In this document: positions 16,116 to 31,843 of the stretch, in pieces
How positions within the stretch are numbered: position 1 is the stretch's first letter
Layout of the letters: each line of letters opens with the position of its first letter
Source: Candidatus Avelusimicrobium intestinale
GTDB lineage: Bacteria > Elusimicrobiota > Elusimicrobia > Elusimicrobiales > Elusimicrobiaceae
Reading direction: 5' to 3'
Length of the DNA stretch: 64,000 bases
Assembly: GCA_902765225.1 (NCBI GenBank)
Contig: CACWYV010000001.1
Location: 248,001 to 312,000, forward strand
Position numbers and translations under genes: made by a program
Notes under the pieces: model-generated
The model's input: the letters and a program-made list of their open reading frames with translations, nothing else
The model's database searches: none
Told to the model about the DNA's origin: nothing

Positions 16116-16288
16116 ACGTTCGGTCACAAGTCGCCTTACTGACGTGCGGCGCTCGCGACCCCGCCTCCCCATGCTCGCCTTTCGTGCTTGCCGGGACGGC
16201 TCGCACTCAAACTCGCATAAGGGTCCGGCTTTCGAATCTCGACGCAATACCAAGCAGTTGGTATTGCTCGAACCTCCACAAAAATTAA

Positions 16289-16307
16289 AACCCCCATAAA
16301 GGGGGTT
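16289..16307 (-). terminator. Hairpin terminator at the left island end
   Basis: AACCCCC/GGGGGTT stem with a 5-nt loop; on the minus strand it is followed by TTAATTTTT. It could end leftward transcription leaving the Fic gene and the doublet array. Confidence 0.6.
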
Positions 16308-16315
16308 CAAATTTT

Positions 16316-16351
16316 TACGGTGGTTGTAGTTTTGCTAGCACTATGCTAATT
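16316..16351. repeat. 36-nt repeat R3
   Basis: Third member of the 36-nt family (TAGTTTTGCTAGCACTATGCT core), immediately right of the hairpin at 16289-16307 and immediately left of the doublet array. Confidence 0.55.
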
Positions 16352-16355
16352 TTTC

Positions 16356-16770: not shown

Positions 16771-16771
16771 A

Positions 16772-17821
16772 TTATTTGTTTAACTTATACTTTCGTGCTC
16801 TTTTGGAAGGATCCGCTACTACCACAAACCCTTGTCGTACCCATTTTTGGAGTAGCTGTCTAGCCGTCCTTCCGGCAAAGTGGAACAATTCTTCTATATC
16901 CCTAGACGTGATAAACTCGTTCTTTTCAAAGAGTACCAATGCTTGTTTTTGGCGTGCATCCAATGCGTTAATATTTTTGCTTTGGTCTTTTGCGGTGCTA
17001 TGTGCCTGTAAGTGCTTTTGTACGCTTTGGAACGAATAGAGCATACCGGACACAAAAAACTCAATCCAGCCGGTTATATCGGCCTCGGCGCGACCCATAT
17101 AATAGTTATGTGAGGGCCCAACCGCAAGCGCATTATAATAATCTTGTAAATGTTGGTAGTAGTATTCTTCCAGGTTATAAATACCCTTTAAGTCATAGCC
17201 GCCCTGGTGCAGAATAAGCGTGGTCAAAATACGTGCTGTTCTGCCGTTTCCATCATAATAGGGGTGTATAGTTACAAACTGATAATGGGCAATAGCCGCT
17301 ACAATAGGGATAGGCAATGTATGGGTGCTTTCGTTAATCCACTCTATAAGCCCGGTCATTAGTGGGCCTACGTCTTTGGCTTCCGGCGGCATATATACAA
17401 TCGTACCCGTTTGGGCATCTACTACCGAGTTTTGTTCCGTGCGGTACTGAGTAGGTGTATTTTTGCCAATAATGAGGCCATGTAGGAGTTGGATATTTGA
17501 TTCCGTAACGATATGCTTTTTAGCCAGTACAGCCACTTCATCCAAAGCATTAAAATACCCCTTAACTTCCTTTTCATCCCGTTCTCGGCCCTGAATGGCT
17601 TGCCCTTTTAATACTTCACGCACTTCCCGTTCCGTTAAGCGATTACCCTCAATGACTGTGGAATAATGTGTGGTAACAATGCGGGATGTCTCTTTGAGCC
17701 CGGCCAGGACTTTGGGCGTTAATGGCATACCCTTGACCTGCTCTTTGATTTGGTCTATTTTATAGAGCTTTTCAAGGATAGACTTTGTAATTTGATAATT
17801 TGGATGAAATGTTATTGGCAT
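16772..17821 (-). CDS. Fic-domain AMP/NMP transferase with C-terminal winged helix
   Basis: Fic enzymes transfer AMP or other nucleotide moieties to target hydroxyl groups. The protein (about 349 aa from ATG 17821) has the active-site motif HPYYDGNGRTAR near residue 190 and an N-terminal inhibitory motif STVIEGNRL near residue 55 ((S/T)xxxE(G/N)), so it is a class II self-inhibited Fic protein. The last 75 residues look like a winged helix (FITSRDIEELFHFAGRTARQLLQKWVRQGFV). ATG 17821 is preferred over GTG 17833, because AGGAG overlaps the GTG. It has its own promoter at 17848-17877 and may regulate itself. Confidence 0.9.
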   Translation of the reverse strand: MPITFHPNYQITKSILEKLYKIDQIKEQVKGMPLTPKVLAGLKETSRIVTTHYSTVIEGNRLTEREVREVLKGQAIQGRERDEKEVKGYFNALDEVAVLAKKHIVTESNIQLLHGLIIGKNTPTQYRTEQNSVVDAQTGTIVYMPPEAKDVGPLMTGLIEWINESTHTLPIPIVAAIAHYQFVTIHPYYDGNGRTARILTTLILHQGGYDLKGIYNLEEYYYQHLQDYYNALAVGPSHNYYMGRAEADITGWIEFFVSGMLYSFQSVQKHLQAHSTAKDQSKNINALDARQKQALVLFEKNEFITSRDIEELFHFAGRTARQLLQKWVRQGFVVVADPSKRARKYKLNK

Positions 17822-17847
17822 ATATATTGGCACTCCTGTATGCCATT

Positions 17848-17877
17848 ATTATGCCATTAAAAAGACAGGGGTGTCAA
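17848..17877 (-). promoter_or_regulatory. Promoter of the fic gene with 11-bp direct repeat
   Basis: Minus-strand -35 TTGACA (plus 17872-17877), 18-nt spacer, -10 CATAAT (plus 17848-17853). TGGCATA occurs twice at an 11-bp spacing across the -10 and again inverted (TATGCCA) at the start codon, a plausible operator. Confidence 0.65.
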
Positions 17878-17912
17878 GGAATTATTATAAAATTTTAACA
17901 TAGAAGTAAAAT

Positions 17913-17937
17913 GCCCCCAAGTTTTAGACTTGGGGGC
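17913..17937 (-). terminator. Terminator of the GIY-YIG gene
   Basis: 9-bp stem GCCCCCAAG/CTTGGGGGC with a 7-nt loop; followed on the minus strand by ATTTTACTT. It separates the GIY-YIG gene from the fic promoter. Confidence 0.75.
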
Positions 17938-17944
17938 GGGATTG

Positions 17945-18268
17945 CTAGCGTTTACCACATAGATTTTCGTTCCCATAGTAAGCACGGATTCCGTGTTCTA
18001 CTTGCAAACGATTTTCTAGCGAGGTGTAAGGCATATAGTGAACGTAAAATTCAATATAACCTTGCTTGCTTTTTAGCCATTGATCTTTTCTGTCGTGGTT
18101 TTGGATTCTGTCTTGAAGTCCACCACTTTCTCCAACATCTAACAGATAACGTTCTCCATTAAAACGCCGATCAACTACGGCATAAATGCCAGAAAGGTTT
18201 TTGATACTTTCTGGTGTAAGAGGACCTTCAAAAACATATGAAGATCCGTTTGTACTACTAATTTTCAT
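17945..18268 (-). CDS. Small GIY-YIG superfamily protein
   Basis: About 107 aa. LSGIYAVV at residue about 30 and YLLDVGESGGLQDRI about 15 residues later match the GIY and YIG strands with the following Arg-containing helix; a Glu (VEHGIRAYYG) near residue 95 would be the metal ligand. Single-domain GIY-YIG proteins are nucleases or nuclease-like; the substrate here is unknown. ATG 18268 is used; GTG 18280 is the alternative. A GATAAT hexamer ends 4 nt before ATG, so this may be another short-leader message. It is the middle gene of a three-gene leftward cluster with fic and the small wHTH-like gene. Confidence 0.7.
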   Translation of the reverse strand: MKISSTNGSSYVFEGPLTPESIKNLSGIYAVVDRRFNGERYLLDVGESGGLQDRIQNHDRKDQWLKSKQGYIEFYVHYMPYTSLENRLQVEHGIRAYYGNENLCGKR

Positions 18269-18280
18269 TTTTATTATCAC

Positions 18281-18461
18281 TTTGTTATACTTTTAAGGGC
18301 GTGAACCTTAAAAGGGTTGAGAAAGTGGGAAGGAAATGATATACTTTAATATATAGTAAGCTATATTTCATAAGCCACTTTCTTTGGAAACTGACTTGTG
18401 AAACAAGTAGCTTCCGTATTAAAGGGTGCGGACTGCTGCAACAGTTCGTGCCCTATTAAAT
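18281..18461 (+). ncRNA. Candidate small structured RNA
   Basis: This 181-nt gap has no gene but three hairpins: AGAAAGTGG pairing with CCACTTTCT over about 50 nt, ACTTGT-gaa-ACAAGT, and a 13-pair stem at 18423-18435/18442-18454 with a 6-nt loop. The last stem has three G-U pairs that are valid only in plus-strand RNA and would be A-C mismatches on the minus strand. It could instead act as a rough terminator for the leftward gene ending at 18462. Confidence 0.4.
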
Positions 18462-18773
18462 TTAGTGGTGATTTTCTTCTAGCCACTTTGGCGTGGCATA
18501 GAATCCTTTCCGGTGCGGGATTGGTTGGATCCTTTTTGCCAAAACCAATCTGCGTACGGCAGCACCTACTAAACGTCTTTGGATTTCTTTTTCTGTTTTT
18601 CTATAAAGAGCTACCCAAAGTTCGTTGATAGAGGCCGCTCCTTCGAATTGAGTTTCTAAGAGGTCAAAAAGGACTTCATCACGGTCGTTTTGTTGAGCTC
18701 GTTTCAGTTCTTTGACCATGAACTCGGGTAAATCTTGCAAGTCATACCGCTTGCCGAGGTTTTCTGTTGTCAT
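18462..18773 (-). CDS. Small winged-helix-like protein of unknown function
   Basis: 103 aa from ATG 18773, chosen because GAGGAGA lies 6 nt upstream; the in-frame ATG at 18812 would overlap the promoter. I do not recognise the family. The charged N-terminal half is helical (DLPEFMVKELKRAQQNDRDEVLFDLLETQFEG), and the C-terminal half (ELWVALYRKTEKEIQRRLVGAAVRRLVLAKRIQPIPHRKGFYA) resembles a winged-helix recognition unit. It could be the regulator of the leftward cluster. Confidence 0.6.
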   Translation of the reverse strand: MTTENLGKRYDLQDLPEFMVKELKRAQQNDRDEVLFDLLETQFEGAASINELWVALYRKTEKEIQRRLVGAAVRRLVLAKRIQPIPHRKGFYATPKWLEENHH

Positions 18774-18793
18774 AAGCTTCTCCTCTATTAAAG

Positions 18794-18822
18794 AGTATAG
18801 CAAAAAATACAAAATAATGCAA
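18794..18822 (-). promoter_or_regulatory. Promoter of the small wHTH-like gene
   Basis: -35 TTGCAT (plus 18817-18822), 17-nt spacer, -10 TATACT (plus 18794-18799), followed by an AGGAG site and the ATG at 18773. Confidence 0.7.
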
Positions 18823-19335
18823 CTACTTTTGCTTTTTTAGCGTAAAAAGTGTGAAAAAACGAGTATTGAAGTGTGCAGAATCTGCGATTTTAATTGTTTT
18901 TAAGACGTTTTCCGCACTACAGCTCCATTTTCTCCCACTCGATACGCTATATCTTGGTATTAAGATCTTCAATCAGCAGTTCCTAGGGGCCTTTGCCATT
19001 CCAACACAGTCTACAGATTTGTTTCCTTTTAGAAGAGTTCTGATCCTGTTTGGGTAATTACGGATTGTATAATCTATTCAATGTAGTTCACCAAAAATAT
19101 AAATATAAGAACTCGGATTTAAATTCAAGGAACATCACATCTACCGTTTTTTATCCATGTTTAATTCTCTTTTTCTTACTTTTTTATTCTTTAAAAGTTT
19201 TTATTTATTCTTTTTATTTGTTTTTTAAAAGTGATTCACGCTTATTTATTAATATTGTGATGTTTTTATTTAAAATGTGAATCTCTTAAACGCGATGTGA
19301 AGAATCCGTGGACTTATCGGTTGTTATCATTTTAA
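18823..19335. other. AT-rich intergenic stretch without recognised gene
   Basis: About 510 nt with short open frames of no recognisable family. The right half (19130-19260) is a T-rich strand with long pyrimidine runs. No strong terminator or promoter was found. The left half may be decayed coding sequence on the minus strand, but I could not assign it. Confidence 0.4.
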
Positions 19336-19779
19336 TCAGTACAGGGTTTTCGTTCCTCCATCATAGAGAACGGCATGTCCAGCTTTAATCAACTCTTTCC
19401 CTAAACTTTCGCCATTTACATCGACATCACAAAGTAGCCGGAAATACTTATCTCGTCCACAATTGTACAATAGAATTTTACCGCTTTTAAGGAAGCGTTC
19501 ACTATATTCCTTGGCTTGTTTGGCTCGAGCTTTCGTTTCTGCCGTTCCGCCTTTCATTTCGGGGCAATCTACTCTCCTGACGCGAACGGAAATATATTTG
19601 CAGAAAACCTCAATATTGCAAGAGGGGATATCTACGTAAAACGTATCTCCGTCATATACGGATATCAAGGATACGTTGTCAAAATTTGCCATATCTTTTT
19701 GCTGGCTTGCGCTTATATGTGCACAGCTGGCTAATAACAGTACGCAAGTTAGCATAAGTGATATTTTACCTATAGTCAT
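19336..19779 (-). CDS. Thermonuclease (SNase)-family lipoprotein
   Basis: The 147-aa protein begins with a lipoprotein signal (lipobox LLASC near residue 19) and then an SNase fold. The segments VYDGDTFYVDIP, SVRVRRVDCPE and RDKYFRLLCDV supply Asp, Arg, Asp, Glu and Arg residues at the places used for Ca2+ binding and catalysis in staphylococcal nuclease. It therefore probably degrades nucleic acid outside the cytoplasm while tethered to a membrane. AAGGAGG precedes the ATG. The 21-bp element at 19821-19841 lies upstream. Confidence 0.85.
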   Translation of the reverse strand: MTIGKISLMLTCVLLLASCAHISASQQKDMANFDNVSLISVYDGDTFYVDIPSCNIEVFCKYISVRVRRVDCPEMKGGTAETKARAKQAKEYSERFLKSGKILLYNCGRDKYFRLLCDVDVNGESLGKELIKAGHAVLYDGGTKTLY

Positions 19780-19820
19780 AATGCCTCCTTAAATCTGTAT
19801 CATTCCTAAACATATTGCTA

Positions 19821-19841
19821 ATCTGGCATTTTTTGACAATT
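19821..19841 (-). promoter_or_regulatory. 21-bp conserved cargo-gene element, copy 1
   Basis: Read on the minus strand it contains TTGTCAAAAAATGCCAGAT and lies about 40 nt upstream of the nuclease lipoprotein ATG. It matches copies at 24921-24941 and 25904-25924 with one or two differences. On the plus strand the same bases supply the TTGACA -35 of the FHA-like gene, so one site could control both divergent genes. Confidence 0.65.
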
Positions 19842-19863
19842 AGTATTGGAAATAAGATACAAT
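19833..19863 (+). promoter_or_regulatory. Promoter of the FHA-like/kinase pair
   Basis: -35 TTGACA (19833-19838) and -10 TACAAT (19858-19863) with a 19-nt spacer. The -10 ends 9 nt before ATG 19873 and there is no Shine-Dalgarno. Confidence 0.55.
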
Positions 19864-19872
19864 GAAATTATT

Positions 19873-21708
19873 ATGAATTTAGCCATACCCACAAAACGAG
19901 ATTTTCAGGAAGATCGCAAGCAAGCAGAATATGCTCTGTTAGAGTATGTTGCATTGATGGTATTCCCATGCAATAAGGAGAGCGATGAAAGGGCTTCCCG
20001 GTTTTGTGAATTATGGCAAAGTGGCTCTATCGACTTGCATGAATTTTGGGGTAAATACGGCGAAATTAGCGAACATGAAAGAGAGTTTGCGGACTTTTGC
20101 GTATCCAAGATAGGGAAAGGCGAAGATTGGGAACAAGGCCCACAAGCGGGAGTTGTTTCGGATGATGTCCCCGATAGAGAAGGCAAATCAGGTAACGAAG
20201 AAGTAGATGCGGAATTACCGCAAGAGACCACAAATGTGGATGATTTTATAGGAAAGTTAAAGGAATTTTTATCGTCATTGCCGAGCAGCACCTTTAACAA
20301 ATTTTTAGTATTTTTCCTGTCCACTCACAACTTTATAGTTGTAAATGCAGCCAAATCTCCCTCTGACATGCCCAAAGAAGTCCAAAATAGCATGCCGGCT
20401 CAAGGCGGACATTTGTCCTATGAAACCAAAAGACTGCACTTAGAACGACTATATCCTTTTTGGGCTTGTTTGGATCGGATTTTAGGTAATAAATACATTT
20501 TGTCTGATCAAAAAATCCAGCAACAACAATACGGGAGACTGTACAAAGCGGCTCATATTACCAATTCAAGCCGCGAGAAGAAAAAACTGGTACAAATTAT
20601 AAGTTCTTTTTTTGATAAGTTCCCTGGTCAATTTGAGGAGTTACAAGAGCCAATTATACAGTCCATTATGCGTGCTCCGTTGCAAACAAGACTGCAGGAT
20701 TTGCCCAAACAGGCAATAAGCCGCAGAGATCAAATGCATATCATATTGCCGGAAGTATTTAAGGGGTGTTCTCAATACGATAAAGAGCGACTACTCCTGA
20801 TAAGAAATGAATTTATTAAAACTGAAAAAGCGGCTGTAGGTGATGCTTATTTGGAACATAGACGAACCTGTGCCAAGTGTAAGCAAGCTGAAGAATCCAT
20901 GCGCGAAGTGATGGAATATCGCTATGGTCGCTTGCAAGAAATAATGAATAAGCCGATTTATCCTGTCCATAAACCCAATAACGGACAAATAAGCGCTACA
21001 ACTCCCCAAGAATTAGTGCAATATTACGAAGAACGCTATAAGAAAATTCCCTGCGAATTACACAAATGTTATTTGACGTTAGCATGCAAACGAAATGGCG
21101 AAATTGAAAAAGCTAATGCTTTGCTGATGTCTAATGAAACTATTGCCCCTGCTACAAATCCAACTATGGGAACAGTTATATCTGTATATTGTGCTTGTGG
21201 CAAAGAAGATGAATATCACTTGAATGCGTTGCGTTCCCCTAAAATTGCTATTGGGCGGTTAGATGAAGAAGATCCACTGGATATTCCGCAAATTAATGTG
21301 TGCCAACCGGATGGCCTGGCTATGTCGCGCGACATGTTAACGTTTGAATATCAGGCAAACAGGCAAGATTGGTTGGTGCACCCCAAAAAAGAACAAGAGG
21401 GGAATTTGTGGTTTTTGTCCCAAGATAAGTTGTTTAATTTATTAGACAGGCAAATTGGCACTGCCGGAGAGCTGAATGTTGATTTTGCGGAAAGTTTTGA
21501 ACCGCTAACGCGTGATATTTGGCTATCGGACATTGCCGGGATCGGAGTGTTTTGGGAAGGATCGGTATTGTTTGCAGGGCAATTGTTAAAAGGAGCAAAG
21601 CACCCCTTGTTAGGGCGGCTGCCGACAGGATGGTACATAGAAGTAAAGGCACAACGCCGCAGCAAAACTATTATGAAGAGCTTTGCCGAGAGATCATTTG
21701 TAGAGTAA
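19873..21708 (+). CDS. Unknown protein with C-terminal FHA-like segment, partner of the kinase
   Basis: A 611-aa protein I do not recognise overall. The N-terminal 110 residues are helical and acidic, the middle part has CAKCKQ and a CACGKE segment that could bind zinc, and residues about 455-520 resemble an FHA phosphothreonine-binding domain (IAIGRLDEED, LDIPQINV, AMSRDMLTFEYQ: the GR, polar and SR positions). ATG 19873 is preferred over the TTG at 19846, which overlaps the promoter. The kinase gene starts 3 nt after its stop, so the two proteins are probably co-translated and may form a kinase-reader pair. Confidence 0.6.
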   Translation: MNLAIPTKRDFQEDRKQAEYALLEYVALMVFPCNKESDERASRFCELWQSGSIDLHEFWGKYGEISEHEREFADFCVSKIGKGEDWEQGPQAGVVSDDVPDREGKSGNEEVDAELPQETTNVDDFIGKLKEFLSSLPSSTFNKFLVFFLSTHNFIVVNAAKSPSDMPKEVQNSMPAQGGHLSYETKRLHLERLYPFWACLDRILGNKYILSDQKIQQQQYGRLYKAAHITNSSREKKKLVQIISSFFDKFPGQFEELQEPIIQSIMRAPLQTRLQDLPKQAISRRDQMHIILPEVFKGCSQYDKERLLLIRNEFIKTEKAAVGDAYLEHRRTCAKCKQAEESMREVMEYRYGRLQEIMNKPIYPVHKPNNGQISATTPQELVQYYEERYKKIPCELHKCYLTLACKRNGEIEKANALLMSNETIAPATNPTMGTVISVYCACGKEDEYHLNALRSPKIAIGRLDEEDPLDIPQINVCQPDGLAMSRDMLTFEYQANRQDWLVHPKKEQEGNLWFLSQDKLFNLLDRQIGTAGELNVDFAESFEPLTRDIWLSDIAGIGVFWEGSVLFAGQLLKGAKHPLLGRLPTGWYIEVKAQRRSKTIMKSFAERSFVE

Positions 21709-21711
21709 ATT

Positions 21712-24700
21712 ATGCCTAAAACTCAATATATACAACAAAAAGAAAAATCACAGCCCTTGTTTATGAAGCGCGGGGATATCTTGTCTGAATTTTTTGAAAT
21801 ATCCGACAGAGCCCGCGAAGGTGGTATGGGAGATGTGTTTTTCTGCCGAGATAAACGGGATAATAAGTTTTATGTATTAAAGACCTTTCAGGAAATTAAA
21901 GAAGGCAAAGATAATAATTTAAGAAATTTTGATAAAGAGGCCATGGCTTCTCTTCAAATACCGCGCCTCCCCTATGTGGTATATACCAAAACTCTTATTG
22001 CAGACGGGACAAGACAATATTTGGTGATGGATTTTGTTGGAAAACAACCCCGTAGTTTGGAAGAACCAGTACAAGGCGAAACCCTCGCACGTGTCTTGAA
22101 AAGCACTAAAATAGAGTACAAACAAGCGTTAATCTGGGCGATTGAATTCTGTAGGGGTATGCAGAATTTGCATAAACATGGTATTGCTGTGCATAAAGAT
22201 ATTAAGTTGGATAATATTTTGCTGGCGCCTGATAACAGTATCTGTATTACGGATTTTGGTCTATCTGTATTGAATAAAAAAGGAGGAACAAAAGGATATT
22301 TTCCTCCTGAATATGATGAATCTTCCGAATTAACAGAGCAAAGCGATATTTATTCCTTCGGAATTGTTTTATATCAACTATTTTTCAATACCTGTTCGGT
22401 CACAATAAACCAAGAACTTGTTGATAAAAATATTTTGTTGAAGCAATGCTTAAAGAATAATCCGAAAGAACGCTATCAGCATTTTTCTGATTTAGAAAAA
22501 GACTTAAAAAAAGAATTAAAACAAAAATTTCCCGAATATAAACTACAAAATATGCCGCGTTTGACTATGACTGCGGATGATTATTTCGGGAAAGGTTTAG
22601 GATTGTATGTTTTAACTTTAGGATTAAGACAAGATAAGGAATTACACCCTCTTCCGCTGGCAGAGAAATTGCTCGGTAAATCTATAAAATTAAACCCTTA
22701 CCATGCAGCTGCTTATTATTATCGAGCTCGTGTTATATCAGAAGAACACCCTTTTGCAGGATATTATGTCAGTATGAAAGATAAGCGATTTATTCCTGAT
22801 AGTTCGGAAAAACGAGCAATTCAAAGAATTCAATCAGATGAAAAATATGCCCAGCAATATAGCGCATTGTACGCTAATTTAATAGAACTGGAACATTATG
22901 CTAAACAGCACGAAGACCCATATATTCAACCGAATGATGACATCTTTTTAAAAACATATATAAAACATTCTCGCAGACATCCGCGCGATCCATATTTACA
23001 TAACAATTTAGGGGTTTTTGAAGAATATACAAAACATTATAACGAAGCGATAAATCATCTAACAAAAGCTATTAAATTATTACCAAATTACGCTATAGCA
23101 TATGCCAATAGAGCCTCCGTGTATTTGTTACTAAATCAAGAGAAAAAAGCATTAAAAGATTGCGCTAAATATACACAATTACGGCAGGGGAACAAATCTT
23201 TTATTCCGCCTACTTTGTTTTATGGAATTTATGTGAGAATTTTTCGTCGATACTGTTGGAACAAAGAATATAAAAAAGCATACGCTTGGTATGAGAAACA
23301 TTTAGATCTATTCCCTAAGTTAAATCCAGAACAAAGAAGAAAAATGTTAAACAGAGTACGTTTCCAAATACAATATCATCGTTTAACTCATTTGTCGTCT
23401 AAGTATGATAAAAAAGAAATTCTTAAAGAGTATAGAGAACTGTGGAAATTATACAAACAAATTCAACAAGAGAAAATTGAAATCAAAAAAGAAGATTGGT
23501 TTAGCGCGGAAGAAAAACAAAGTTTGCAAATTAGTAATTGTGGATTTCCTACAAAACCCAATATGCGCCCTATATTTTTTAGGCGTATTTGTATTGAACA
23601 TCCGAGTGCGCCTATTCTAAATGAAATGGGATATTATGTCGCTGGTTGGGGGAGAAATGATATCCCCGAGGAAGGTGTTTCCGGAGCGCATTTCCCAGAA
23701 AAAGCCATTCCGTATTTTGATCGAGCTATTGAAGCGGATAGAACCTATGCGCCTGCTTATTATAATAGGGCTCGCGCTTATCAAGAATGTAACGAATATG
23801 CTAAAGCGATATCTGACTATACCACAGCACTTAAGTTGGCCCCAGAACAAGCATATTCCGACTCAACCAGATGTGAGTATTATATGGATCGCATATGTAA
23901 TCTAATAGATGGTAACGATGGGAGTTTTCGAGATGGGCAGCGTTGGATTGATATGATGGAAAGCGGCGATATTCTATCTATGAGGATTAAGGAACAGTAT
24001 TCTAGTCATTATATTGGCGCTCATCTAATAGTTGATAAGGAAGTTGATATTGAGTATCCCCATAAGCCGCACATTTATAAACTTATATTAAATAAGGCAA
24101 AGTTTTATTTCAGGGCAACTCGGTACGAAAAAGCTTTGTATTATTTGCAGAAATTAGGAAGATTCGAAGATGCACCGAAATTGTATGTTCAAAAAGGTAC
24201 TTGCTTTTATAAATTAGGCCAATATCAAGAAGCATTAAAATGCTTTTTAAATATAAATACAGATAAAGAAGATCGTAAAACCATTATGTGTTCCAATGCG
24301 AATATTGCTTTATGTCATGCTAAGTTGGGAAATACAGAACAAGAAAAAGTACATTTGAACAAAGCCTTCAACGATTTTTTTATAACTATGGGCCTTGCCC
24401 AAGATCCAAATCTTAGGGAAGGTATTGTCAAGGCAACAGGTCGACGCGTATTAATGGAAAAGACAGATAAAGGATATGTTAGGGCCAATCTTGATAAAAA
24501 ATTTTATCAACAAGTGTCCAGTTACTTTGAGTCTTGTTACAAACAATGTTTAGTTAAAAATAAATTATTTAACATTGTCATGCCCGTAGATATGGTTGAT
24601 ATGATTTTTCTTGACAATGCATATTATCAGCGTGCAGAATGTTATTTCGCTTTAAAAAATTATGCTGCCGCTCTGGCTGATTACACAAAGATTTTGCAAT

Positions 24701-24810
24701 CGTATTATCCATTCCCCTCGGCCTTTATTCCGAAATTTGTATTGCATGTTGAGGAAAAAATAACGACATGCGAGAAAGCATTAAAAATAGCGCCTACAAA
24801 GAAATCTTAG
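21712..24810 (+). CDS. Ser/Thr protein kinase with TPR repeats
   Basis: A 1032-aa protein. The N-terminal kinase domain (about residues 28-270) has a GGMGDVFF glycine loop, Lys57 in VLKTF, the catalytic HKDIKLDN loop (Asp163, with HRD changed to HKD), DFG at 181-183 and PPEY in place of APE, so it is probably active. The rest is TPR-like: LHNNLGVFEEYTKHYNEAINHLTKAIKLLP, APAYYNRARAYQECNEYAKAISDYTTALKLAP and CFYKLGQYQEALKCF are clear units. No membrane segment is seen. It is coupled to the FHA-like gene and ends at a strong terminator. The coding sequence is AT-rich relative to host genes. Confidence 0.88.
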   Translation: MPKTQYIQQKEKSQPLFMKRGDILSEFFEISDRAREGGMGDVFFCRDKRDNKFYVLKTFQEIKEGKDNNLRNFDKEAMASLQIPRLPYVVYTKTLIADGTRQYLVMDFVGKQPRSLEEPVQGETLARVLKSTKIEYKQALIWAIEFCRGMQNLHKHGIAVHKDIKLDNILLAPDNSICITDFGLSVLNKKGGTKGYFPPEYDESSELTEQSDIYSFGIVLYQLFFNTCSVTINQELVDKNILLKQCLKNNPKERYQHFSDLEKDLKKELKQKFPEYKLQNMPRLTMTADDYFGKGLGLYVLTLGLRQDKELHPLPLAEKLLGKSIKLNPYHAAAYYYRARVISEEHPFAGYYVSMKDKRFIPDSSEKRAIQRIQSDEKYAQQYSALYANLIELEHYAKQHEDPYIQPNDDIFLKTYIKHSRRHPRDPYLHNNLGVFEEYTKHYNEAINHLTKAIKLLPNYAIAYANRASVYLLLNQEKKALKDCAKYTQLRQGNKSFIPPTLFYGIYVRIFRRYCWNKEYKKAYAWYEKHLDLFPKLNPEQRRKMLNRVRFQIQYHRLTHLSSKYDKKEILKEYRELWKLYKQIQQEKIEIKKEDWFSAEEKQSLQISNCGFPTKPNMRPIFFRRICIEHPSAPILNEMGYYVAGWGRNDIPEEGVSGAHFPEKAIPYFDRAIEADRTYAPAYYNRARAYQECNEYAKAISDYTTALKLAPEQAYSDSTRCEYYMDRICNLIDGNDGSFRDGQRWIDMMESGDILSMRIKEQYSSHYIGAHLIVDKEVDIEYPHKPHIYKLILNKAKFYFRATRYEKALYYLQKLGRFEDAPKLYVQKGTCFYKLGQYQEALKCFLNINTDKEDRKTIMCSNANIALCHAKLGNTEQEKVHLNKAFNDFFITMGLAQDPNLREGIVKATGRRVLMEKTDKGYVRANLDKKFYQQVSSYFESCYKQCLVKNKLFNIVMPVDMVDMIFLDNAYYQRAECYFALKNYAAALADYTKILQSYYPFPSAFIPKFVLHVEEKITTCEKALKIAPTKKS

Positions 24811-24850
24811 CTATATACACTTACCTATACAACTGTCAGAGAATGCCCAA

Positions 24851-24874
24851 AAGCCCCTTTAAATGAAGGGGCTT
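24851..24874 (+). terminator. Terminator of the FHA-like/kinase operon
   Basis: Perfect 9-bp stem AAGCCCCTT/AAGGGGCTT with a 6-nt loop, then TCGTATTTTAT. Confidence 0.8.
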
Positions 24875-24920
24875 TCGTATTTTATATGGAAATTCTTTAA
24901 AAATGATTTTTCTATAGATA

Positions 24921-24941
24921 AATTGTCAAAAAACGCCAGAT
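24921..24941 (+). promoter_or_regulatory. 21-bp conserved cargo-gene element, copy 2
   Basis: Contains TTGTCAAAAAACGCCAGAT, located 49 nt upstream of the DUF805 ATG. It is inverted relative to copy 1, so the FHA-like/kinase operon lies between near-perfect 21-bp inverted copies. Confidence 0.65.
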
Positions 24942-24990
24942 ATTTCGCTTTAATGGAAGGACATTTCAAAAAGAATAAAAGGAGAAAATC

Positions 24991-25332
24991 ATGTTTGTAA
25001 ATGCACTGAAATTATTTAGTTGGGAAGGTCGTGTTTGCCGCCGTCAGTACTTGCTGGCATTTATATTGGTAGTTATTGCCGCTACGATACTTGCCGCGGG
25101 TATGGACAATGGAAGAGGCGGAGAAGGCCCAGCACAATTTCTTATGATTTTGGGGCAATTAGCTTTAATTCCCACGCAAATTAAACGTTTGCACGATATC
25201 GGTTGGAGTGGGTGGATAATTTTGTTGGCTCTTGTTCCCGGAATTAACTTGATATTGGGGCTTGGGTTATTTCTCTTCTCCGGCACAAAAGGCCCTAATA
25301 AATACGGAGAAGACCCGCATACCGGTAAATAA
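24991..25332 (+). CDS. DUF805 membrane protein
   Basis: The 113-aa protein has the DUF805 signature positions: WEGRVCRRQYLLAF at the N-terminus, IKRLHDIGWSGWIILL in the middle and GTKGPNKYGEDP at the end, with three hydrophobic helices. The family (YhaH/YhaI) is of unknown function and is often carried on accessory DNA. AGGAG lies 8 nt before ATG. It is alone between two copies of the 21-bp element. Confidence 0.85.
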   Translation: MFVNALKLFSWEGRVCRRQYLLAFILVVIAATILAAGMDNGRGGEGPAQFLMILGQLALIPTQIKRLHDIGWSGWIILLALVPGINLILGLGLFLFSGTKGPNKYGEDPHTGK

Positions 25333-25336
25333 TTTT

Positions 25337-25903
25337 AGCGTTGTGAAAGACAAGGGATAGGGCCCTTGTTAAAAATACGCTAAGGTGTACAGACAACAAT
25401 TACCGTCTGGTGTAGTTGGGCCAGGTGCGAGCCGGTACAGAAAGGACGACTTGGAAACGAACCGGCTTATTATCCCGACAGGGTATTTAAGGTTGTGAAG
25501 CATTTTCATATTTAGTGCGTGAGAAAGTTATATGCGATCTGTAAGATAACTTTCTGCTGCGAAAGAAAGCCCAAAAATAGAAGAAATCTGCCTTTTGTTA
25601 GGGCAAAGGCCTCCGCCAACTGGGCGTTGGGTCCAACCGTTGAAAGAAACGGTTCCCGTTCCGCGGATTTCTCAAAATAGGTTTCTATCTGCCCCGACTT
25701 TTCAGGTAGAAGCAGGTTTTACGGAAACAGCATATTATCTTGTGGGCGCATATAACCGGAAACCTAAACTTTCTGGTTTACTCTCATAACCTTAGAAAGG
25801 GTGTTAACCCGTAATAAGTGCCGTAAGTGAATGTAAAAACTCGGCAGCGTAATTGGCCAAGTAGATTGAATTTCACAGCTTGGTGTCTATGATTTGTATA
25901 GGG
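25337..25903 (+). ncRNA. Candidate large structured non-coding RNA (about 550 nt)
   Basis: No gene-like frame, but dense hairpins: ACAAGGG/CCCTTGT (25350-25369), AGCCGGT/ACCGGCT (25430-25467), a 10-bp perfect stem AGAAAGTTAT/ATAACTTTCT (25522-25555), CCAAC/GTTGG (25616-25630), AACCGTT/AACGGTT with a GAAAGA loop (25635-25654), a 9-pair stem (25683-25711) and another 9-pair stem with a G-U pair (25754-25778). Further short stems are GGGT/ACCC (25799-25810), TGCCG/CGGCA (25819-25846) and CCAAG/CTTGG (25857-25883). Near-terminal ACAGAC (25389) and GTCTAT (25885) could close the molecule. Size and mobile-element setting recall the ornate large RNAs GOLLD and ROOL, but no sequence match was tested. 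Confidence 0.6.
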
Positions 25904-25924
25904 AAATGTCAAAAAACGCCAGAT
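25904..25924 (+). promoter_or_regulatory. 21-bp conserved cargo-gene element, copy 3
   Basis: Contains TGTCAAAAAACGCCAGAT and marks the end of the hairpin-rich stretch. It lies about 100 nt upstream of the NYN nuclease gene and has the same orientation as copy 2; TATAGT at 25932-25937 could serve as the -10. Confidence 0.6.
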
Positions 25925-25937
25925 TTAAGCTTATAGT

Positions 25938-26026
25938 GTAGGGGGCCACACCCGGTAGGGAGTAATCCCATAGTTGGCATATCTTAATATGACCCTTAAC
26001 AAAAGGGTATAGCTAAGGAGAATTAT
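25938..26026 (+). promoter_or_regulatory. Structured 5' leader of the NYN nuclease gene
   Basis: GGGA/TCCC (25958-25969) and CCCTT-aacaa-AAGGG (25993-26007) hairpins precede the AAGGAG site at 26014. The second hairpin is close enough to affect translation start. Confidence 0.4.
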
Positions 26027-26422
26027 ATGACAAGTCTTATTATTGACGGTTCCAATGTAATCCGTTCGGCTTACGGTCTGCAAGGTAAGCCCAATTTCGC
26101 TCTTGAAGCCCGCCTGGCTAATCAATTGGTTCAATATCTATCCGGTCTTAATACCGATACTTCCCGCACGATTGAGTGTTACTTTGACGGTTTTAAGCGT
26201 GCCATAAGCCGCCCGCGCGGCCTTAGTGTGTTTTTTTCTGCCAAGCATAAAGCCGATAAATTGATTGTCAATTCCGTTTACGAACATATACAAAACTATG
26301 ATCACAATGTATGTGTGGTAACGGCAGATAATGAGATTATCCAAAAATCTCGTGCTTGCGGAGCCCGCGTACAATATACCTACGACTTTTTGAAAGGTTT
26401 TTGGCCCTATATCAATTTTTAA
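26027..26422 (+). CDS. NYN/PIN-like (YacP-type) ribonuclease
   Basis: The 131-aa protein has the PIN-fold acidic positions of the NYN family: LIIDGSNVIRSAYG at residue 4, ECYFDG near residue 50, FFSAKHKADKLIVNSVYEH near residue 70 and VVTADNEIIQKSRACGARV near residue 95. Such proteins are metal-dependent single-strand RNA nucleases. The gene is shorter than full YacP (about 170 aa). It sits between the candidate large RNA and a PIF1-like helicase gene (10 nt gap), so an RNA-processing role linked to the neighbouring RNA is attractive but unproven. Confidence 0.8.
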   Translation: MTSLIIDGSNVIRSAYGLQGKPNFALEARLANQLVQYLSGLNTDTSRTIECYFDGFKRAISRPRGLSVFFSAKHKADKLIVNSVYEHIQNYDHNVCVVTADNEIIQKSRACGARVQYTYDFLKGFWPYINF

Positions 26423-26432
26423 GGAGACTGAC

Positions 26433-27773
26433 ATGACAACACAAATTATTCCTTCCGAATTGGAAATGACAGACGAAATCAAACAAGCCATTTATTATAT
26501 TAACCATGGGGATAATGTCTTTATTCATGGCCGTCCGGGAACGGGAAAATCCACCTTTCTCAAAGGATTGCGATCGCACTTAAATGTAAAAAGCAAGAAT
26601 GCTATGTTTGTGGCTCCTACGGGTATTGCGGCTTTGAATATTCACGGGCAAACGATTCACTCTTTCTTTCACATTAACCCACAAGACATGCATGCGCCGC
26701 TGGACTATGCCAACCGAAATGCCATAAAAACAGCATGGAAAAACTTGGATATTTTAGTTGTGGATGAAATATCCATGGTAAGAGCAGATATTTTTGACAA
26801 GATGAACGAGCGTTTGCAGGCCGTATTGGACGATGAACGTCCTTTTGCCCACAAACAGGTTATTGTGGTGGGGGATCTAAACCAATTAGCTCCGGTACTT
26901 AACGAAAAATCTAATTTACAACAAGATCAACAATGTAAGGAAACTTATGAAACTTCTTATGTGTTTGAAGCCAAATGTTGGGAAGGAATGAATTTTAAGC
27001 ATATTTTCTTCACAAAAATTTTTCGCCAAACGGACGTGGAGTTTACAGGTAATTTAGCTGCATTAGAATCGCCACATAGTAAGAATTTCTCTCAAGCTCT
27101 TGCTTATTTCAACAAGCGTGTAACTGATAAACGTCCGCAAGAAGCTGTGTGTTTATGTGCACGTAAAATTGATGCGGAGAAAATTAATCAGGCCGAACTT
27201 GATAAGTTACCGCAACCTACCTATCGTATCCCTGCTTTTCAAAGTAGTCGCTACGATAACGATTGGAAAGAAAGCAATTGCCCGGCTCCCAAGGTGTTAT
27301 ACCTGAAAATCGGCGCCAAGGTTATGTTTGTGCGCAATGATGAGAAAAAACTGTTTGTAAACGGGATGTTGGGACGGGTTAAAAGTATCAACTGCGTGAA
27401 GGAAAAGACGATTAAAAGTATTACCGTGGAAGTTGCCGGAAATCGCGAAGTGGAAGTGCATTGTTGTACTTGGTATAAGACGATACTTAACAAAAAAACG
27501 GGCCGTCAGGAACCGGATATGGAAAATTATTTTTGCCAATTCCCTTTACAACTGGCATGGGCTACAACCATCCATAAAGCACAGGGTATGACTTTTGACT
27601 CTGCTTATGTGGATATGGGCGAAAAGGGAGCTTTTAGTATTGGACAAACCTACGTGGCCTTAAGTCGTGTCCGCACCGTTGACGGATTGTGGCTTAAAAA
27701 ACCGTTGCAAGAGTCGGATATTTTGCCGAATCCGGCCGTAGAGAAATTTTACAAAGATATAAAAGGAGAATAA
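26433..27773 (+). CDS. PIF1-like 5'-3' DNA helicase
   Basis: A 446-aa superfamily 1B helicase: Walker A GRPGTGKST near residue 37, APTGIAALNIHGQTIHSFF, Walker B LVVDEISMVRADIFD, GDLNQLAPV, an IFRQ motif and the C-terminal WATTIHKAQGMTFDSAYVDMG and YVALSRVR motifs. PIF1 helicases unwind G4 or forked DNA; mobile elements often carry one for replication or recombination. AAGGAG precedes the ATG. It is co-directional with the NYN nuclease and with the small membrane protein 2 nt downstream. Confidence 0.92.
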   Translation: MTTQIIPSELEMTDEIKQAIYYINHGDNVFIHGRPGTGKSTFLKGLRSHLNVKSKNAMFVAPTGIAALNIHGQTIHSFFHINPQDMHAPLDYANRNAIKTAWKNLDILVVDEISMVRADIFDKMNERLQAVLDDERPFAHKQVIVVGDLNQLAPVLNEKSNLQQDQQCKETYETSYVFEAKCWEGMNFKHIFFTKIFRQTDVEFTGNLAALESPHSKNFSQALAYFNKRVTDKRPQEAVCLCARKIDAEKINQAELDKLPQPTYRIPAFQSSRYDNDWKESNCPAPKVLYLKIGAKVMFVRNDEKKLFVNGMLGRVKSINCVKEKTIKSITVEVAGNREVEVHCCTWYKTILNKKTGRQEPDMENYFCQFPLQLAWATTIHKAQGMTFDSAYVDMGEKGAFSIGQTYVALSRVRTVDGLWLKKPLQESDILPNPAVEKFYKDIKGE

Positions 27774-27775
27774 CT

Positions 27776-28000
27776 ATGGAATTAGTGGGTGGGATCGGAG
27801 TATTTGTATTGTTGATTGTAGGTGGACTACATGCTATGGTACCTCAAAACTCTAAATTACGTTTGAGTATTTGTATTTGCTTGGCTGTCGGCCTTTGCTT
27901 TACCGGAACGATGCATGGGGTTTTATTGGCGATTGGGCTGATATTTGTGGAAATGATTGTAAACAAAGTCATTTCTTTTTGGAAAAATATATCATTATAA
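27776..28000 (+). CDS. Small two-helix membrane protein
   Basis: 74 aa, almost entirely hydrophobic, with two predicted helices (residues about 4-22 and 30-62) and a basic end. I do not recognise a family. AAGGAG overlaps the end of the helicase gene, giving clear translation signals. Confidence 0.6.
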   Translation: MELVGGIGVFVLLIVGGLHAMVPQNSKLRLSICICLAVGLCFTGTMHGVLLAIGLIFVEMIVNKVISFWKNISL

Positions 28001-28016
28001 AATAAGGAGAATAGTT

Positions 28017-28886
28017 ATGAATAGAAAATTTTTTGTTGTTTTGATGAGTAGTTTATTTATTTTTGCTTGTGGGGAAAAATTACCAACGGTAGATAGTAGC
28101 ACTTCGGAAACATATAAGGCCTCGTTGGATCGTGTAAGTCAGTCCGTACCAAAAGAAAAGGAAGAAAATTTTAACTTTTCCATCAGTATTTTGGCCATGG
28201 AATCTATTAAGGAACACATTATTGATGGAGTTATAATGACTGATGACGAGCAAGACGAACAAGGTAAGAAAGAATTTCAAAAATCCTTGCACGGCCTTAA
28301 TTACAAGCAAATTATGTCTCGGAGTGATCAGGTCATGAAATCAAAAATGGAAAGGGCTAAGGAACAATATGAAGAAGAATTGATGAATACCATTGATGCT
28401 ATTGTTGCCGCTAAAAAAATTAAAACGGAGTTATCTAAAATTATCATAACTGACAAGGCCATAGATAGTAAGAACTTATCTATGAAATTAGAAAATAAAA
28501 CTAATTCTTCACTAAAGAAACTCTTAGTATTGGGATTAGTGGCCCCTACGGAGGATTCATTACCCAATCCACGAGTTCTATTTATTGATTTTGAAAAGCC
28601 TCTTGCTCCAAAAGAAGCGCGAACAGTTGTAATTCCCTTGAAGGAAGAATATGGTTGGAAACCTACTGATTATTTGGCAATTCCTCGCATTTCTTTAGAT
28701 ATAGTTCGCGCCGAAGATGTGAAGAAAAAAGTAATACTCAACGATAAGTTGGCCGAAGCATTTGGGGGGTATGTGGATCTTCGGAAGAATTATCAAGAAC
28801 TGCAAACCTTATTGGAAGGGCAGAACGATTGGGTGTCTGTTTTCACAGTAGAAAATATCGCCAAAGGGTTTTTCCCACTTAAATAA
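28017..28886 (+). CDS. DUF6694-like lipoprotein
   Basis: The 289-aa protein has a lipoprotein signal (MNRKFFVVLMSSLFIFAC) and then a segment ETYKASLDRVSQSVPKEKEENFNFSISILAMESI...LHGLNYKQIMSRSDQV that fits the N-terminal DUF6694 pattern. A coiled-coil-like stretch (residues about 95-130) and a beta-rich C-terminal half follow. Function unknown. An AAGGAG site precedes the ATG; 50 nt separate it from DUF2924. Confidence 0.65.
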   Translation: MNRKFFVVLMSSLFIFACGEKLPTVDSSTSETYKASLDRVSQSVPKEKEENFNFSISILAMESIKEHIIDGVIMTDDEQDEQGKKEFQKSLHGLNYKQIMSRSDQVMKSKMERAKEQYEEELMNTIDAIVAAKKIKTELSKIIITDKAIDSKNLSMKLENKTNSSLKKLLVLGLVAPTEDSLPNPRVLFIDFEKPLAPKEARTVVIPLKEEYGWKPTDYLAIPRISLDIVRAEDVKKKVILNDKLAEAFGGYVDLRKNYQELQTLLEGQNDWVSVFTVENIAKGFFPLK

Positions 28887-28937
28887 TATAACTTGACTTC
28901 TAGGGCGTTATAAGCGGTAATGTGTATAGGAGAGAAT

Positions 28938-29321
28938 ATGCAGAACTATACACATTTAACCACTCGGGAATTAGAGTTAAAATGGCTGGAATTAATAGGC
29001 CGTCCTATGCCACCAATTGGGCGAAGTTTAATTATTAAATATCTGTTGTGGTATGAACAAGCCAAGCGTGAGAAAATCTCTCCACTTGGCTTTTTTCATG
29101 AAGTGGCCCAAGCCGCTAAGGGAGCAGATAAACGCCCTAAAGCCACTCTTGAGATAGGCTCTAAACTAATCCGTTCCTATCAAGGACTTAAGTATGAAGT
29201 AGAAATCGTTCCACAAGGGTATCTGTACGAGAATAATCTCTACAAAAGCCTGTCCGGTGTAGCCAAGGCTATTACAGGTAAAAGCTGGAACGGGAATGTA
29301 TTCTTTGGAGTAAAAAAATGA
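28938..29321 (+). CDS. DUF2924 protein, recombinase partner
   Basis: 127 aa from ATG 28938, chosen because AGGAGA lies just upstream. LTTRELELKWLELIGRPMPP, LLWYEQAKRE and YKSLSGVAKAITGKSWNGNVFFGV match DUF2924, a family typically encoded directly upstream of serine recombinases in phage-like and alphaproteobacterial elements. The C-terminal part looks like a DNA-binding fold. Its stop overlaps the recombinase start (ATGA), so the two are coupled and may act together, for example as recombination accessory factor and enzyme. Confidence 0.8.
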   Translation: MQNYTHLTTRELELKWLELIGRPMPPIGRSLIIKYLLWYEQAKREKISPLGFFHEVAQAAKGADKRPKATLEIGSKLIRSYQGLKYEVEIVPQGYLYENNLYKSLSGVAKAITGKSWNGNVFFGVKK

Positions 29322-30940
29322 GTGATAAGAAAATACGTTGTGCTATCTATACGCGCAAATCAACTGAAGAAGGTTTAGAGCAAGAGTTTAACAGTTTGCA
29401 AGCCCAGCGGGAAGCGTGTGAAGCATATATTAAAAGCCAAAAGCACGAGAATTGGCAATTATTACTTACCGAATATGATGATGGCGGATATTCAGGGGGC
29501 AATATGGAAAGACCGGCTTTAAAACGTCTGCTCCAAGATGTTCAAAACGGACTAATTGATATTATTGTTGTTTACAAAATAGACCGTTTAACTCGCAGTT
29601 TAATGGACTTTAGCAAGATAGTGGAAGTGTTAGATAAGCATAATGCCTCGTTTGTATCTATTACTCAACATTTTAATACCACTACCAGTATGGGGCGGCT
29701 CACATTAAATATGCTACTCTCATTTGCCCAGTTTGAGCGGGAAGTAACCGGTGAACGTATCCGGGATAAGATTAGTGCGAGTAAGAAAAAAGGGATGTGG
29801 ATGGGTGGCAAACCACCATTAGGATATTATCGTAAAGATAAGAAAATCTACCCGGATGAAGAGAAATCCGTACTTATCAATAATATCTTTAAGAAATACA
29901 TAGAACTTAAAAGTACCACCTTATTAAAAGATTGGCTCGCGGAGCAAGGACGTAATATATCAGTAGGTAATTTGAACTGTATCTTGCGTAATAAAGCATA
30001 TATCGGCCTAGTTGGACATAAAGGCACATGGTATCAGGGGGAACATCAAGGGATAATCCCAATAGAACTATTTGAACAGGTCCAAACAGTAATGGCGGAT
30101 AATCGTATTAACCGTCAGCATTATGATCCTAAAAAGAGCCTTTTATCCGGCAAACTATATGATGATAAAGACAACACTATGAGCCCTAGTTGGAGTACGG
30201 GGTGTAGTGGTAAAATATATCGCTATTATGTGAGCCAAGCCATTATCCGCAAAGAGCCCGCCAAGTTGGGAAAGATAGGAAAAGTATCTCTGCCACAATT
30301 AGAGCAGTTTATAGATAATTGGTTTAGTGAATTTTTGAAGGACAAAACAAAAATATATCCGTATATCCAACAGTTTGGCGTAAGCAAACAACAGGGAATT
30401 ATCAAAAAACTACCATCATATCCAATAACGCGGAATATAGAAAAAGAACTAATCAAACGTGTGAAATTAAATCCCAACAGGATAGAAATTACACTATATC
30501 AAGAACAAGTAACCGAACTATTAAATGCCATTTATGAACATAGAGAAATAATCCTGCTCAAACCCGAAAAATTGAAGAATGAAAATACCTACACGGAACC
30601 GTACCATATCGGTACAATAGCCAACGGAGAAAAGATAATTGTGGGGCGGTTTGTAGAACCAAGAAAAAGGCCAAATACTGAACTTATTAAAATCTTAAAT
30701 CAGGCCTATACTTGGCATCAAGAAATATTAGACGGAAAAACTACCCAAGAAATAGCCAATAGAGAAAAGGTTTGCGTGCAGTATGTGCGCCGGATCCTCA
30801 ATTTGAGTTTCTTATCACCCAAAATCGTACGCTCTATCCTAAACGGTACCCAACCCGCCGATTGCACCCTCAAAAAATTGCTATCCATTAAAACGTCAGA
30901 TTGGCAGGAACAAACTAAACTCTTGCTGAATAACCCATAG
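29318..30940 (+). CDS. Large serine recombinase/integrase
   Basis: A 540-aa resolvase-type integrase. The catalytic N-terminal domain starts RCAIYTRKSTEEG (catalytic Ser15) and contains YKIDRLTRS and FAQFEREVTGERIRDKI. The recombinase domain follows from about residue 155 (GKPPLGYYRKDKK). At LLSGKLYDDKDNTMSPSW the usual Cys-rich zinc ribbon is replaced by a Cys-poor version, as in other DUF2924-associated enzymes. A helix-turn-helix lies near residue 490 (TTQEIANREKVCVQYVRRIL). It is the best candidate for mobility of the island and lies next to the tRNA-Asp end. Confidence 0.9.
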   Translation: MSDKKIRCAIYTRKSTEEGLEQEFNSLQAQREACEAYIKSQKHENWQLLLTEYDDGGYSGGNMERPALKRLLQDVQNGLIDIIVVYKIDRLTRSLMDFSKIVEVLDKHNASFVSITQHFNTTTSMGRLTLNMLLSFAQFEREVTGERIRDKISASKKKGMWMGGKPPLGYYRKDKKIYPDEEKSVLINNIFKKYIELKSTTLLKDWLAEQGRNISVGNLNCILRNKAYIGLVGHKGTWYQGEHQGIIPIELFEQVQTVMADNRINRQHYDPKKSLLSGKLYDDKDNTMSPSWSTGCSGKIYRYYVSQAIIRKEPAKLGKIGKVSLPQLEQFIDNWFSEFLKDKTKIYPYIQQFGVSKQQGIIKKLPSYPITRNIEKELIKRVKLNPNRIEITLYQEQVTELLNAIYEHREIILLKPEKLKNENTYTEPYHIGTIANGEKIIVGRFVEPRKRPNTELIKILNQAYTWHQEILDGKTTQEIANREKVCVQYVRRILNLSFLSPKIVRSILNGTQPADCTLKKLLSIKTSDWQEQTKLLLNNP

Positions 30941-30978
30941 AGAGCGCATCTCTACAAAATTATGCTAAAACAAAGGGA

Positions 30979-31524
30979 TTATTTTTTGGAAGATAGATAT
31001 TTATTGAGATACTCTTCGATTTGCAGGTATCGCAATACGGAAGAGTTACTCAAATCATGTGTCTGCTTTAGAGCTTGCTTTCGTAAATCCTGAATAGCAT
31101 CATAATATCGCTCATTAATAACGAGTTCCAAGTCAATATCTGACTTTTTCAAATATTCTTTAGCACTTAAGACAGATTTTAAAGCATCATACTTTGCCCC
31201 TTCTTTAGAAGATTTAACAATAGGGCTCCAAAGCATGTAATATTGAGTAAAATTTTCAAAATGATTTTGGACATATTCTTTATCTTTAGTAAATTTGTGA
31301 ATAAAACGGTTTTCTGTATCGGGACGGCGTTTTTGAGGATCCACATATTGCAATCCATGAATATGGGCTGCTACTTCACAGACATAAATTTCTTTGTCGA
31401 CAATATTTAATCCGATCACGTCGATTTCTGTTTGATGAGGACCTTTGATGTTGTACTCTACAAATTCACATTTTTTAATGTGTCGTAGCCATTCACCGGT
31501 TATTTCTTCTGCAATATTATGCAT
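30979..31524 (-). CDS. Possible PD-(D/E)XK-like protein, active site altered
   Basis: 181 aa. QTEIDVIGLNIVDKEIYVCEVAAHIHGLQYV resembles the core of restriction-endonuclease-like folds, where D is followed by E-x-K; here the E is present but the Lys position reads Ala or His. The rest is helical. It may be an inactive or divergent nuclease, or the resemblance may be accidental. The gene is opposite in direction to the recombinase and is the last gene of the island. A specific function cannot be given. Confidence 0.5.
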   Translation of the reverse strand: MHNIAEEITGEWLRHIKKCEFVEYNIKGPHQTEIDVIGLNIVDKEIYVCEVAAHIHGLQYVDPQKRRPDTENRFIHKFTKDKEYVQNHFENFTQYYMLWSPIVKSSKEGAKYDALKSVLSAKEYLKKSDIDLELVINERYYDAIQDLRKQALKQTHDLSNSSVLRYLQIEEYLNKYLSSKK

Positions 31525-31581
31525 AAAATTTCTCTCTTAAAAGATTTTCTATATTGTAGCAATTTTCCCAAATTTATATTT

Positions 31582-31753
31582 AGTGAACGACTTCCTACCA
31601 AGTTAGGTCAGCATAAATAGAGAATATTTACCAAAACACGCCCAAACCTGCCAAAATCTGCATGCTATCAGTGGCGCACAAAAAAATCCCCGTCGGGCAA
31701 AATGCCTAACGGGGATAAATGCTAATAATCAAAAACTAAAATACGGAGTCGAC
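31582..31753. repeat. tRNA-Asp 3'-flank repeat, copy C (right island boundary)
   Basis: Intact copy next to the real tRNA. It holds GTCAGCATAAAT, AATATTTACCAAAACACGCC, the terminator hairpin and the 22-bp core (31732-31753), which overlaps the tRNA 3' end. Copy A is very similar over the hairpin block, copy B more diverged there but identical in the 22-bp core. Confidence 0.8.
31686..31716 (-). terminator. Terminator of tRNA-Asp
   Basis: ATCCCCGT/ACGGGGAT stem with an inner GGCA/TGCC stem, followed on the minus strand by TTTTTTT; 28 nt downstream of the tRNA. Confidence 0.85.
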
Positions 31754-31818
31754 GAGATTCGAACTCGCGGTCTCTGCCTTGACAGGGCAGCGTGTTAACC
31801 AGGCTACACCACGACTCC
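31744..31818 (-). tRNA. tRNA-Asp (GTC)
   Basis: Cloverleaf on the minus strand: acceptor GGAGTCG/CGACTCC, discriminator G, T-arm with GTTCGAATC, anticodon stem CTGCC/GGCAG with loop CTGTCAA and anticodon GTC. CCA is not encoded. Its 3' end is the target of the island: GGAGTCGAC recurs at the left boundary. Confidence 0.95.
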
Positions 31819-31843
31819 AAACAACTCAAAAAGGCGTATTCAT

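Follow-up and report, generated by a model that had tools for sequence, protein, structure and literature searches.

What occupies the roughly 550 nt that separate a DUF805 membrane protein gene from an NYN nuclease gene within a mobile island of an Elusimicrobium genome? In the 64,000-nt stretch of this genome analysed here (the window), an initial annotation had placed a candidate large structured non-coding RNA at 25337-25903, likening it to GOLLD and ROOL while allowing that it could be a new class. The island features that bear on the question are as follows.

16041-31753: mobile island, bounded by ~75-bp direct repeats at 16041-16115 and 31679-31753
24991-25332, plus strand: DUF805 membrane protein gene, directly upstream of the RNA (Pfam PF05656, E=3e-20)
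25334-25890, plus strand: large structured RNA (homologues in 10 genomes; alifold z=-14.6; 41 double-sided compensatory pairs)
25907-25924, plus strand: motif TGTCANAAANGCCAGAT, recurring across the element, a putative promoter or operator that separates the RNA from NYN (3 matches vs 0.08 expected)
26027-26422, plus strand: NYN (YacP-like) nuclease gene, downstream of the RNA (Pfam PF05991, E=3e-9)
26433-27773, plus strand: PIF1/Dda-like helicase gene (Pfam PF05970, E=2e-32; PHROG Dda-like helicase, E=2e-72)
27776-28000, plus strand: gene for a 74-aa small membrane-like protein with a TGTMHG motif, candidate partner of the RNA (present in 6 of 66 genomes, each of which carries the RNA)
28920-30940, plus strand: mobility module, consisting of a DUF2924 gene and a large serine recombinase (Pfam PF11149, PF00239, PF07508)

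The RNA lies between the DUF805 stop codon (25330-25332) and the NYN start codon (26027), with both genes on the plus strand, and its length is ~557 nt in the window and roughly 465-592 nt among homologues. As first noted, the gap contains no gene-like open reading frame (ORF). The sole listed plus-strand ORF, at 25595-25789 (64 aa), falls mostly inside a domain that is missing from three homologues, and a check of coding potential found stops in every forward frame of every homologue, with no frame open in any copy. Folding energy is -219 kcal/mol for the plus strand, whose dinucleotide shuffles average -189 ± 7.6 (z = -4.0); the minus strand likewise beats its own shuffles, by a smaller margin (z = -3.2). 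The interval originally drawn required trimming at its 3' side: the RNA itself spans ~25334-25890, whereas 25891-25903, together with the DNA as far as 26026, belongs to a separate, conserved NYN leader/promoter region.

Homologues were collected by BLASTN against 61 genomes, which returned five relatives at 68-94% identity, and with two covariance models representing the 3' end of the RNA (R1) and its 5' core (R2). Together, R1 and BLASTN located a single copy in each of 10 genomes, out of 66 belonging to the same genus. Carriers identified in a motif scan of 84,980 named genomes are uncultured Elusimicrobium or Elusimicrobiales MAGs from rumen or gut, mostly rumen bins. Outside the carrier genus, R1 and R2 matched nothing among 341 Elusimicrobiota genomes; BLASTN against phages and plasmids produced nothing except one 27-nt chance match, and pattern scans of IMG/VR, checked with the models, gave zero or chance matches. 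A Colwellia match from the 84,980-genome scan was rejected as chance, its sequence reading as coding DNA (permease-like). Weak R1 matches in genomes G062 and G076 were set aside too, since on reading they resemble coding DNA. Four groups can be distinguished among the ten copies: A (window, L021, L023 and L025; 91-97% identical), B (L026-L028), C (L024), and D (L022 and L029, the latter cut by a contig end), with 55-71% identity between groups. A literature search, beyond whose reach most subscription journals lay, turned up no description of this RNA in Elusimicrobium.

Alignment of these sequences with MAFFT, followed by RNAalifold, produced a single global architecture: a helix between the two ends closes it, and it further comprises a hairpin at the 5' end, long-range helices, a covarying loop-loop pseudoknot, and about a dozen hairpins. 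The plus-strand alignment folds at -188, compared to -105 ± 6 for column shuffles that preserve phylogeny and conservation classes (z = -14.6), and scores better than the minus strand (-146, z = -11.7). Compensatory pairs numbered 50, while refolded column shuffles gave 20 ± 4 and a maximum of 30. In a separate default MAFFT alignment, 92% of cells were paired across the 130 pairs of the named structure and 41 pairs showed double-sided change; sliding the partners by 1-3 columns left 36-49% of cells paired and 3-10 double-sided pairs, a contrast that is inflated because the structure was derived from the same sequences, and from which bias the refolded-shuffle control is free. Covariation among homologues is thus strong in aggregate, and the claim rests on these aggregate tests because our sample (ten copies, about five lineages, one genus) includes too few lineages for a tree-based single-pair covariation test to have power. 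On the plus strand, many of the variable pairs switch between G-C and G-U, a pattern that argues for a plus-strand RNA. With covarying conserved structure over more than 450 nt and no conserved ORF, the element resembles large structured bacterial non-coding RNAs in kind, and to judge from its sequences it is almost certainly a real, conserved, plus-strand structured RNA. Its principal parts, all on the plus strand, are listed below.

25335-25383, plus strand: P1, 5' hairpin outside the closing helix, with an apical stem at 25349-25370 (8 of 15 pairs change on both sides)
25390-25889, plus strand: P2, closing helix 25390-25394 / 25885-25889, joining the ends of the body (93% of cells paired; 2 of 5 pairs double-sided)
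25397-25855, plus strand: P3, long-range helix 25397-25401 / 25851-25855 (4 of 5 pairs double-sided)
25407-25465, plus strand: P4 arm, an extended branched stem around a conserved GUUACAGAAGGGCGA loop (helices 5-8 of the named structure)
25466-25818, plus strand: P5, long-range helix CUUAUUAU 25466-25473 / GUAAUAAG 25811-25818 (100% of cells paired, in every sequence)
25486-25796, plus strand: P7, long-range helix 25486-25502 / 25779-25796 (17 pairs, 95% paired, 6 double-sided)
25511-25768, plus strand: loop-loop pseudoknot, UUUAG 25511-25515 / CUAAA 25764-25768 (100% paired, 9 sequences)
25522-25555, plus strand: P9, hairpin with a perfect 10-bp stem (94% paired)
25573-25680, plus strand: variable domain, ~105 nt, absent from L026-L028 (group B) in the alignment
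25681-25713, plus strand: P11, hairpin (5 of 10 pairs double-sided)
25754-25778, plus strand: P12, hairpin whose loop forms the pseudoknot (94% paired)
25856-25884, plus strand: P15, 3' hairpin with a conserved UUGAAUUUCA loop (97% paired)

P1 begins 2 nt past the DUF805 stop codon. The pairing between the two ends, initially put forward as possible, corresponds to P2, a conserved helix with two covarying pairs. The pseudoknot connects the highly conserved UUUAG loop to the loop of P12, and in L022 both of its sides have changed, to UUCAG/CUGAA. The perfect 10-bp stem that had been singled out (AGAAAGTTAT 25522-25531 / ATAACTTTCT 25546-25555) is conserved as P9. The 7-bp stem AACCGTT/AACGGTT also exists, but sits in the variable domain, whose absence from group B indicates that it is dispensable.

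The RNA lies in a mobile element, as had been proposed: a serine-recombinase island whose ~75-bp terminal repeats include the 3' end of a tRNA-Asp (31743-31819) and its downstream hairpin. Seven of the ten copies reside in one serine-recombinase island family and three in other small islands; the group C island begins directly past a tRNA. Gene order in the related islands, partly cut by contig ends in L023 and L026, is SNase, 620-aa protein, kinase/TPR, cargo (YHYH, DUF805 or ankyrin), RNA, NYN, PIF1, DUF6694, DUF2924 and recombinase. The NYN and PIF1 proteins are 99% identical between genomes G000 and G008 whereas the adjacent MurB is 67% identical, suggesting that the island moved recently; the corresponding DNA-level identities are 94% for the RNA, 95% for NYN, 97% for PIF1, and 68% for murB. 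In L022, mnmA and a GAF-protein gene are separated by a 2.6-kb insertion, which contains the RNA and is missing from relatives such as G011 and G064. In a sister island in G019, a different gene takes the place of both the RNA and a 160-aa protein. These cases suggest that the RNA comes and goes with cargo.

The genes for the 620-aa protein and the Ser/Thr kinase-TPR protein adjoin one another in the window (19846-21708 and 21712-24810). The former protein has no Pfam, PADLOC or PHROGs match, and the kinase domain of the latter resembles PD-T4-6-type defence kinases. A remote relative of the island, L063 in genome G016, encodes NYN (42%), PIF1 (45%), and a kinase in rearranged order, and the RNA was not detected there.

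The function of the RNA can be approached through the genes that surround it. The most serious alternative to a trans-acting RNA is a cis-acting 5' leader of very large size, which would regulate the gene or operon 3' of it, either as a riboswitch-like element or in response to a protein. Such a leader would fit with the RNA always preceding a gene on the same strand, and with a start codon that follows the last helix by 36-75 nt in L024, L022, and L029 (groups C and D). However, the gene 3' of the RNA varies by lineage (NYN, a 77/79-aa membrane protein, or a 160-aa protein), and these genes come from unrelated families. In addition, TGTCANAAANGCCAGAT separates the RNA from NYN in the seven islands of the main family, and we found neither an intrinsic terminator in or past the RNA nor conserved sequestration of a ribosome-binding site. 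A conserved closed structure of 500 nt is also unusual for a leader, and we regard this explanation as unlikely.

In the window, fewer than 20 nt lie between the end of the RNA and TGTCANAAANGCCAGAT, which has further copies at 24924-24941 (plus strand) and 19821-19838 (minus strand). In the main (homologous) island family it stands upstream of SNase, the YHYH/DUF805 unit, and NYN, and it is likely an element-specific promoter or operator. If so, NYN would be independent of the RNA as a leader, and the RNA would form the 3' part of the DUF805/ankyrin transcript. In L022, a promoter-like TTGTGA-16-TATAGT ends shortly 5' of P1, past the terminator-like end of another RNA element, a placement that suggests a transcript starting at P1; promoter-like sites are no commoner than in shuffled DNA. 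The NYN leader itself (25907-26026) is conserved, being 96-98% identical in group A and 88% identical in group B over 118 nt, and holds several short hairpins; it is possibly a separate regulatory RNA.

A structural role in trans is the best reading, given that the genes around the RNA vary and that a distinct control motif lies beyond it; action in trans is, in our judgement, somewhat favoured. On this view, transcription would either run through from the cargo gene (DUF805, ankyrin or YHYH) or, as L022 suggests, start at a promoter belonging to the RNA. The product would then be kept or processed as a stable species and would act in trans the way OLE, ROOL or GOLLD do, serving as a scaffold or an RNA-protein particle. 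The best candidate for a partner would be the small membrane protein encoded in the same operons, comparable to OapA for OLE. In L024 and L029, the first gene 3' of the RNA codes for this 74-79-aa protein, which in group A is encoded in the same operon. One island family accounts for most of the cases in which it accompanies the RNA. The three group B islands and L022 lack a recognisable small membrane protein, which makes it a lead only; that it is the partner of this RNA seems doubtful. Suspicion first fell on OapA as the OLE partner through the same kind of gene adjacency (PMC11332333). NYN accompanies the RNA in seven carriers, and a 42% relative occurs in one non-carrier.

Searches against Rfam found nothing in the window at curated thresholds and nothing credible at E<=10, and the divergent homologues L022 and L003 gave no match at E<=5. 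A weak ARRPOF match upstream in L022 did not recur in the other copies of that element and was rejected. These searches bear on whether the RNA could be catalytic, as a novel ribozyme with self-cleaving, self-splicing or other activity. Its large size, closed architecture, long-range helices, pseudoknot, and invariant unpaired stretches are all features of known large ribozymes, and group II introns, including circularly permuted ones (PMC8637638), are likewise large structured RNAs in mobile DNA. However, models for HEARO, group I and group II introns (core or domain V), RNase P, and small ribozymes had no match (E<=10 in the window, E<=5 in L022 and L003), no reverse transcriptase was seen, and the RNA lies between intact genes, with no interrupted gene or exon in view. 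A ribozyme is thus improbable, more so than a leader. Less probable still is a recombination or replication site that folds as single-stranded DNA: its location in mobile islands and the better-than-shuffled folding of the minus strand would suit such an element, but the plus-strand alignment outscores the minus strand (-188 vs -146), DNA structure would not favour the plus-strand G-C/G-U alternation, and the RNA lies away from the tRNA repeats that form the island ends.

The likeness to GOLLD and ROOL that was first proposed holds in kind but not in membership, since no Rfam covariance model, including those for ROOL, GOLLD, and OLE, gave a credible match to the RNA in the window (E<=10) or in L022 and L003 (E<=5). 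The OLE gene adjoins oapA, which encodes a membrane protein. In L024 and L029 a small membrane-like protein gene lies next to the RNA, and in group A it belongs to the same operon, but group B and L022 lack a recognisable one. OLE is similar in length to the window RNA; it differs in its host phylum, and the neighbouring proteins of the window RNA were not recognised as OLE-associated. To our knowledge, OLE does not occur as mobile-island cargo. GOLLD RNAs, many of which exceed 800 nt, are encoded in prophages or phages, often near tRNA arrays. The window island is integrated at a tRNA, but no structural phage genes were recognised among its scanned proteins (Pfam, PHROGs). ROOL forms a homo-octameric RNA nanocage. 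It shares with the window RNA its length class, rumen samples, mobile elements near tRNA genes, and a function that is not known (PMC12286853), whereas the window RNA was found only in Elusimicrobium islands and has no match in phage or viral collections.

That the RNA is a highly divergent member of ROOL, GOLLD or OLE missed by the Rfam models is very improbable: its length, similar to that of OLE and ROOL, would agree with this, as would two traits it has in common with ROOL, an origin in the rumen and a mobile setting next to a tRNA (PMC12286853), but Rfam models searched one by one gave no match in the window (E<=10) or in divergent homologues (E<=5). The suggestion of a new class fared better: with no Rfam match in the window or in the L022 and L003 copies, the RNA very likely represents a new family. 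A leader, a ribozyme, and a DNA-level site are ranked behind a trans-acting structural RNA, and on balance we favour the interpretation that the feature encodes a large ornate non-coding RNA of a new class, which Elusimicrobium mobile islands carry as cargo and which works in trans. More tentatively, it may specify an RNA-based machine, either a homo-oligomer or a membrane-bound RNP containing the adjacent small protein, that evolved independently of OLE, ROOL, and GOLLD.

Few bacterial RNAs are this large and complex, and what most of them do is not known. An unrelated ~560-nt class would allow one to ask anew whether large structural RNAs arise repeatedly in mobile elements, and what purpose they serve. 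The assets of this class are a clear architecture, a dispensable domain, and a compact neighbourhood that includes a small membrane protein, a YacP-like nuclease, and a PIF1 helicase, and the structure model is explicit enough for synthesis and probing now. Recent work has shown that three large bacterial RNAs assemble without protein (PMC12286853).

A second, unrelated structured RNA of ~240 nt occurs in related islands (L022:10755-10995, plus strand, with further copies L133-L138 and L142-L146). It was found at 15 places in 10 of 66 genus genomes, with up to three per genome and no copy in the window genome, and the copies searched had no credible Rfam match. Its alignment folds with z = -19.5, and it features a strongly covarying pseudoknot (e.g., GAGGUUCAAAGC/GCUUUGAACCUC, GAGAAGCCAAAC/GAUUGGCUUCUC) and a terminator-like 3' hairpin with a U run. 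In L022 and L024, this ~240-nt RNA is located upstream of the large RNA.
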